A stretch of DNA of 38,553 bases from Methanoregula sp. (lineage in GTDB: Archaea > Halobacteriota > Methanomicrobia > Methanomicrobiales > Methanospirillaceae): the NCBI GenBank assembly GCA_030694985.1, contig JAUYTV010000030.1, forward strand, positions 1-38,553, given 5' to 3'. Positions 13,776-28,934 of this stretch are shown in pieces; position 1 is the first letter of the stretch, and the number at the start of each line of letters is the position of its first letter. A program made the position numbers and the translations under genes. The notes below the pieces were generated by a model. The model searched no databases, was not told the origin of the DNA, and worked only from the letters and a program-made list of their open reading frames with translations.

Positions 13776-13943
13776 TGGGGTTGGTGAGATTTGAACTCAC
13801 GATCGACGGGTCTCTCCGACATGCATCAGTGCTCCAACGGGTCATCATCTTTTTATCAGCAGACCCATTGTTCATCATCTGCGAGCACAAAGAACGCAAA
13901 GACCGCTGGAGCCCGTCGCCATTCCGGGCTAGGCCACAACCCC
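13776..13943 (-). tRNA. tRNA-Trp (CCA), interrupted by a 94-nt intron
   Basis: Acceptor GGGGTTG (13943-13937) pairs with CAACCCC (13783-13777), and the discriminator base is A. The D arm, the T arm (GTGAG/CTCAC around TTCAAAT) and the anticodon stem ACGGG/CCCGT (13806-13810 on the 3' side) all form. The loop CTCCAG|A contains anticodon CCA. The intron (13812-13905) lies after position 37, the canonical archaeal site. Loop bases 32-35 (CTCC) pair with GGAG near the intron's 3' end, leaving three-base bulges A-G-C and A-G-A, a clean bulge-helix-bulge for the splicing endonuclease. CCA is not encoded at the 3' end. Confidence 0.95.
13812..13905 (-). ncRNA. Box C/D guide RNA inside the tRNA-Trp intron
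   Basis: On the minus strand the intron contains, in order: box C ATGATGA (13872-13878), a 12-nt guide, box D' CTGA (13856-13859), box C' ATGATGA (13842-13848), a 12-nt guide and box D CTGA (13826-13829). By the fifth-nucleotide rule, the D guide pairs with the exon 1-intron junction so that C34 of the anticodon is the 2'-O-methylation target. Ten pairs form with the unspliced RNA, including one G-U. The D' guide pairs with exon 2 and targets C39. Haloferax pre-tRNA-Trp is known to carry a comparable intron guiding methylation at 34 and 39. Confidence 0.9.
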
Positions 13944-14077
13944 TTTTTTGTCCACGTACAGGATTTTCCTGCCGCTGACTCAATAAATTCGCAGTATACA
14001 AACTTAAGAGTTTGGTTATCCGGGTTTTCATTTTTGAGATTTAAGTCCTATCAGAATCCTGGTACTGACTGATCCAA

Positions 14078-23152: not shown

Positions 23153-23224
23153 GGGCTGGTAGATCAGTGGTAGATCGCTCCCTTGGCATGGGAGAGGCCG
23201 CGGGTTCAATTCCCGCCCAGTCCA
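23153..23224 (+). tRNA. tRNA-Ala (GGC)
   Basis: Acceptor GGGCTGG (23153-23159) pairs with CCAGTCC (23217-23223) with one G-U, and the discriminator is A. D stem GATC/GATC, anticodon stem CTCCC/GGGAG with loop TTGGCAT (anticodon GGC), and T arm GCGGG/CCCGC around TTCAATT all form. No intron and no encoded CCA. Confidence 0.95.
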
Positions 23225-23394
23225 CTCGTTTTTTATCAGAGCCAAAAGACGGCTCCGGTCTCTTTTTAAAAGGATTTATCACTCCTCAAAAGTGTCATCC
23301 CGTATTGGGATTTTTAATCCGTAACAGATTTGTGTTGCATCCATACAAGAACAGTGATTTCCTTTGAGGATTTTTATGAGATGCGTGTCCCCTT

Positions 23395-28859: not shown

Positions 28860-28934
28860 TGGGGTAGGGCGGATTCGAACCGCCGTCAAAGCGTCCCAAA
28901 CGCTCTAGGATGGACCAGGCTACCCTACTACCCC
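28860..28934 (-). tRNA. tRNA-Pro (TGG)
   Basis: Acceptor GGGGTAG (28934-28928) pairs with CTACCCC (28867-28861), and the discriminator is A. Anticodon stem GAGCG/CGCTT closes the loop TTTGGGA (anticodon TGG). T arm GGCGG/CCGCC surrounds TTCGAAT. No intron, no encoded CCA. It sits six bases upstream of the endonuclease III start codon. Confidence 0.94.

Follow-up and report, generated by a model that had tools for sequence, protein, structure and literature searches.

The Intron of a Methanoregula Pre-tRNA-Trp Is a Regular Member of the Archaeal Self-Guiding Box C/D RNAs

The pre-tRNA-Trp gene of a Methanoregula sp. contig raises the question of whether its intron, besides being spliced out, serves as a guide RNA for the anticodon region of the very tRNA that it interrupts. 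Such an arrangement is known from Haloferax and Pyrococcus, and at least 29 archaea have been reported to possess it (PMC2584109; PMC7994747). We analyzed the locus within a window of 38,553 nucleotides and compared it with related archaeal sequences. The locus is a regular, well conserved member of this already known class, and we are highly confident that it is an ordinary tRNA-Trp intron-encoded box C/D guide of the Rfam sR3 type.

The tRNA-Trp gene, its intron and the two guides

Comparison of the window with Rfam models demonstrated a tRNA match on the reverse strand (13943–13776; RF00005, 46.8 bits) with the anticodon CCA, enclosing a match to the box C/D family sR3 (RF01133; 62.1 bits; E value, 3.2e-13). 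The sR3 model was matched end to end (1–55 of 55), above its gathering score of 41, and the match lies in the intron of a tRNA-Trp(CCA) gene. These two covariance matches bear out the preliminary description, in which a 94-nt tRNA-Trp intron doubled as a two-guide box C/D RNA. The gene was absent from the ARAGORN output for the window, run as set, a result that cannot count against it. The features, all on the reverse strand (−), are as follows.

13776–13943 (−): pre-tRNA-Trp(CCA) gene; 74-nt mature tRNA once the intron is removed
13906–13943 (−): exon 1, tRNA nt 1–37 (transcript 1–38)
13812–13905 (−): 94-nt intron at 37/38 (transcript 39–132), delimited by the bulge-helix-bulge and the anticodon-stem pairing ACGGG/CCCGU
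13776–13811 (−): exon 2, tRNA nt 38–73 (transcript 133–168)
13907–13909 (−): anticodon CCA; C34 at 13909 is the predicted Cm34
13810 (−): C39, the predicted Cm39, paired with G31
13905–13911 (−): bulge-helix-bulge, 5′ half; helix CUCC at 13908–13911, bulge A36 G37 ^ C (intron nt 1) at 13905–13907
13811–13817 (−): bulge-helix-bulge, 3′ half; helix GGAG at 13814–13817, bulge A G ^ A38 at 13811–13813
13824–13882 (−): box C/D sRNA in the intron (sR3 match)
13872–13878 (−): C box AUGAUGA (transcript 66–72)
13860–13871 (−): D′ guide ACAAUGGGUCUG, nt 5 from the box opposite C39
13856–13859 (−): D′ box CUGA (transcript 85–88)
13842–13847 (−): C′ box UGAUGA (transcript 97–102)
13830–13841 (−): D guide CCCGUUGGAGCA, nt 5 from the box opposite C34
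13826–13829 (−): D box CUGA (transcript 115–118)

The intron has the anatomy of an archaeal box C/D RNA, with complete C, D′, C′ and D boxes, guides of about 12 nt and targets at the fifth nucleotide from the D and D′ boxes. The distances from C to D′ and from C′ to D are both exactly 12 nt, as had been noted in the preliminary description. Positions 2–11 of the D guide are all paired (10/10) with G31–G37 and intron nt 1–3 across the exon 1–intron junction, one pair being G·U, and guide nt 5, a G, faces C34. The D′ guide is paired at positions 2–9 (8/8) with the final two nucleotides of the intron, with A38 and with nt 39–43, and its nt 5, also a G, faces C39. Both registers are thus those originally proposed, and among the 310 CTGA sites on the two strands of the window, no other reached the scores of these guides.

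The splicing signal is of the standard archaeal hBHBh′ type. Its central helix of 4 bp (CUCC/GGAG) lies between two bulges of 3 nt each (AG^C and AG^A), in which the cut is predicted to follow the second nucleotide, and the anticodon stem supplies an outer helix of 5 bp. The earlier wording of a "perfect" motif was slightly generous, since the inner helix consists of only three pairs, two of which are G·U. The host genome also encodes proteins expected for such an RNA and its splicing: fibrillarin (211.9 bits) and Nop (Nop5; 134.9 bits) gave one match each, at neighboring places, and the tRNA splicing endonuclease was represented by two of its domains.

Two further tRNA genes in the window, tRNA-Ala(GGC) at 23153–23225 (+) and tRNA-Pro(UGG) at 28860–28934 (−), have no introns. 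About 40 nt upstream of the tRNA-Trp gene (13981–13988, −), a TATA-like sequence, ATTTATTG, sits within a context resembling TGCGANTTTATTGAGTCAG; many congeneric genomes have it as well.

Known counterparts and conservation among relatives

The link to the Haloferax pre-tRNA-Trp system made in the preliminary description is correct in both identity and geometry. The intronic box C/D RNA of Haloferax volcanii and Pyrococcus (sR50), as summarized in later accounts (Clouet d'Orval, 2001; Singh, 2004; via PMC7994747 and PMC2584109), likewise occupies a tRNA-Trp intron at 37/38, carries two guides directed at C34 (D) and nt 39 (D′), and is spliced at a bulge-helix-bulge. The Methanoregula locus differs from that of Haloferax in having C39 with G31 rather than U39 and an intron of 94 rather than 103 nt; compared with the Halobacteria read here, its last intron nucleotide is G instead of U, and its D boxes are CUGA, whereas theirs are mostly CCGA. 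Relative to the sR3 model, the guide letters are the same except at a few positions, and the D′–C′ spacer is slightly longer (8 nt). The haloarchaeal sR-tMet, which directs Cm34 of elongator tRNA-Met, is likewise a box C/D guide for which the intron of the target forms part of the pairing site; unlike the tRNA-Trp intron guide, it is encoded outside the target tRNA gene (PMC4033218; PMC2584109).

The guide-bearing intron is not peculiar to this genome. A comparison across the order, as suggested in the preliminary description, yielded sR3 matches in all 13 genera (13/13) and in 54 of the 60 relatives compared, so that the feature is order-wide and covered by an Rfam family. We parsed 212 different pre-tRNA-Trp sequences, drawn from Methanomicrobiales, Archaeoglobi, Halobacteria, ANME-2 and the Methanosarcinia, Methanothrix among them. 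Introns ranged from 61 to 207 nt and D′–C′ spacers from 4 to 120 nt, and the measured guide length was 12 nt for D in 203 and for D′ in 166 of the 212 sequences. Pairing of guide nt 1, which varies freely, was left out of the scoring. The central helix of the splicing motif was CUCC/GGAG in 174 of the 212 and CUCC/GAAG or GGGG in the remainder. These results indicate that the textbook Haloferax case is typical of Methanomicrobiales, Archaeoglobi and their relatives.

Most sequences of the comparison set were found by a D-guide pattern or by the sR3 model and all 212 passed a D-guide pairing filter, so that the conservation of the D guide is partly a product of how the sequences were chosen. 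This bias is limited, though not removed, by a set of 50 loci picked by tRNA exon 1 alone, of which 48 had a matching D guide; the remaining two, L242 and L271 (the second near a contig start), did not pass the parser. Several pattern matches (L204–L207, L210–L212 and L223) occurred by chance, without a tRNA, and were discarded. A sequence labeled Candidatus Bathyarchaeota JdFR-04 (L123) seemed to widen the range, but its anticodon stem is of the Archaeoglobi type and its similarly short intron and near-identical guides resemble the Archaeoglobi sequences; it was therefore left out of the range evidence and is probably a mis-binned contig with an Archaeoglobi-type tRNA-Trp gene.

Apparent losses of the D′ guide in L048, L052 and L106 were parser failures, the guide being one base longer or the box degenerate, and L226 was misassigned by the parser. 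Two Halobacteria (L243 and L245, family f33) have the D′ guide in front of a CAGA box. In L048 and L106, which belong to two different families, the longer D′ guide reads GGGUCUUU-CUGA, and the N+5 rule would point to A38 instead of C39. The introns of L025 and L056, from Methanoregula-type genomes, are enlarged by an insertion of some 55 nt between D′ and C′.

Position 39 and its guide

The second target base had been described as having changed from U39 to C39 in Methanoregula. Our comparison favors the reverse direction. Every non-haloarchaeal sequence parsed has C39, with G at guide nt 5 wherever a D′ guide was assigned, and C39 combined with G31 and a guide G is the usual state among Methanomicrobiales, Archaeoglobi, Methanothrix and ANME-2. 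The tRNA-Trp of the window, with C at position 39, conforms to this pattern and does not present the U39 target of a Haloferax-type Um39 guide. In contrast, only the Halobacteria set contains U39, which occurs there as A31–U39, mostly with A at guide nt 5. That set includes two exceptions. L224, of the class Halobacteria, has kept G31–C39 with guide G5, and the f13 Halobacteria (L233–L241, nine parsed) place a guide G5 opposite U39, giving a G·U wobble at the nucleotide predicted to be methylated, whereas most other haloarchaea have A5.

Since C39/G5 is widespread, U39 is found in Halobacteria only and both exceptions exist, U39 in Haloferax is probably derived, as judged from its distribution among the parsed sequences. 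The simplest order of change would be C39/G5 to U39/G5 to U39/A5. The distribution suggests that the best-studied example, Haloferax, carries a derived second target. A previous review already lists "Um39 (or Cm39)" (PMC6313347), and C39 of Pyrococcus furiosus tRNA-Trp has been predicted as methylated (PMC7668247).

Conceivably, the intron guides Cm34 alone, through its D guide, and C39 stays unmethylated, the D′ half being a structural remnant. Several predicted methylations, including that of C39 in P. furiosus tRNA-Trp, were undetected in the tRNAs analyzed (PMC7668247), and the D′ guide of a few relatives is one base off register or next to a degenerate D′ box (L048, L106 and L052). However, nt 5 of the D′ guide, with the greater part of its other positions, has been kept from Archaeoglobi to Methanomicrobiales despite spacers of 4–120 nt, guide and target have changed together in most Halobacteria, and Um39 is known in Haloferax (PMC2584109). 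Loss of function in the D′ half is therefore unlikely, and a guide with two working halves is the preferred reading.

Order of methylation and splicing

The pairing of the D guide with intron nt 1–3 is present in nearly all sequences. Intron nt 1 and D-guide nt 9 form C–G in 181, A–U in 29 and U–A in 2 sequences, and are thus Watson–Crick paired in 212 of 212, with compensatory changes at intron nt 1 (these tallies count sequences, not independent events). Intron nt 2–3 are GG in all 212, and a single sequence departs from CC at D-guide nt 10–11. Since this pairing is lost on splicing, the predicted Cm34 should be made on the unspliced precursor; for Haloferax, both methylations are stated to precede splicing (PMC2584109). 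The claim that modification must precede splicing consequently follows from the sequence for C34 only, whose guide needs intron nucleotides, as the D′ guide fits the spliced tRNA too.

The D′ guide of the window forms eight pairs with the precursor and nine with the spliced tRNA (nt 35–43). It fits both about equally because the intron ends in AG, a repeat of A36–G37, and the timing of Cm39 is therefore not fixed by sequence in Methanoregula. Cm39 could accordingly be made after splicing, with Cm34 before it, if the excised intron RNP acted in trans on the spliced tRNA. This order would agree with the ninth pair, with four Methanothrix sequences in which the intron ends in U, a mismatch with guide C3, so that the guide fits fully only the spliced G37, and with the excised intron circles that accumulate in other archaea (PMC9014305; PMC12558985). 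On the other hand, seven sequences with A37, from the order of the window's own genus, have a D′ guide that fits fully only the precursor, the guide of 24 Halobacteria tracks the last intron nucleotide (U paired with A) and is hence precursor-specific, and both methylations have been placed before splicing (PMC2584109). Methylation of C39 after splicing is considered unlikely.

A broader proposal reconciling these groups deserves about the same small degree of belief. In C39-type archaea, the AG repeat at the intron end would let one D′ guide serve both forms, with Cm39 made after splicing or independently of it through the excised intron, whereas in Halobacteria the switch to U39, together with the last intron U and guide A3, would have locked Cm39/Um39 to the precursor. 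The linked changes in the 31–39 pair, guide nt 5, the last intron nucleotide and guide nt 3 provide a natural series for the study of guide–target co-change and of methylation timing.

A spliceable intron that resembles a guide only by chance is extremely improbable, given the sR3 E value, guide scores unique among the CTGA sites of the window, and conservation with compensatory changes across relatives, against which nothing of weight can be set.

For the sR3-type guide preferred here, the course of events may be drawn by analogy with the work on Haloferax and Pyrococcus. L7Ae, Nop5 and fibrillarin would bind the intron, and the D guide would direct 2′-O-methylation of C34 on the unspliced pre-tRNA-Trp, probably in trans, as in Haloferax, where the intron guide has been described as working sequentially and in trans (Singh et al., 2004; via PMC7994747 and PMC4090602). 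The D′ guide would direct methylation of C39, the splicing endonuclease would then cut at the bulge-helix-bulge, and the excised intron, probably circular, could keep working as a guide. The tRNA-Trp introns are circular in every organism with reanalyzed circRNA data (PMC12558985), and their circles are abundant in Thermococcus (PMC9014305). The Haloferax intron can be deleted with viability kept (PMC4090602).

In some Methanoregula-type genomes the guide region occurs twice, at a distance of about 1.1 kb, as in L103 (5181–5202 and 6343–6364).
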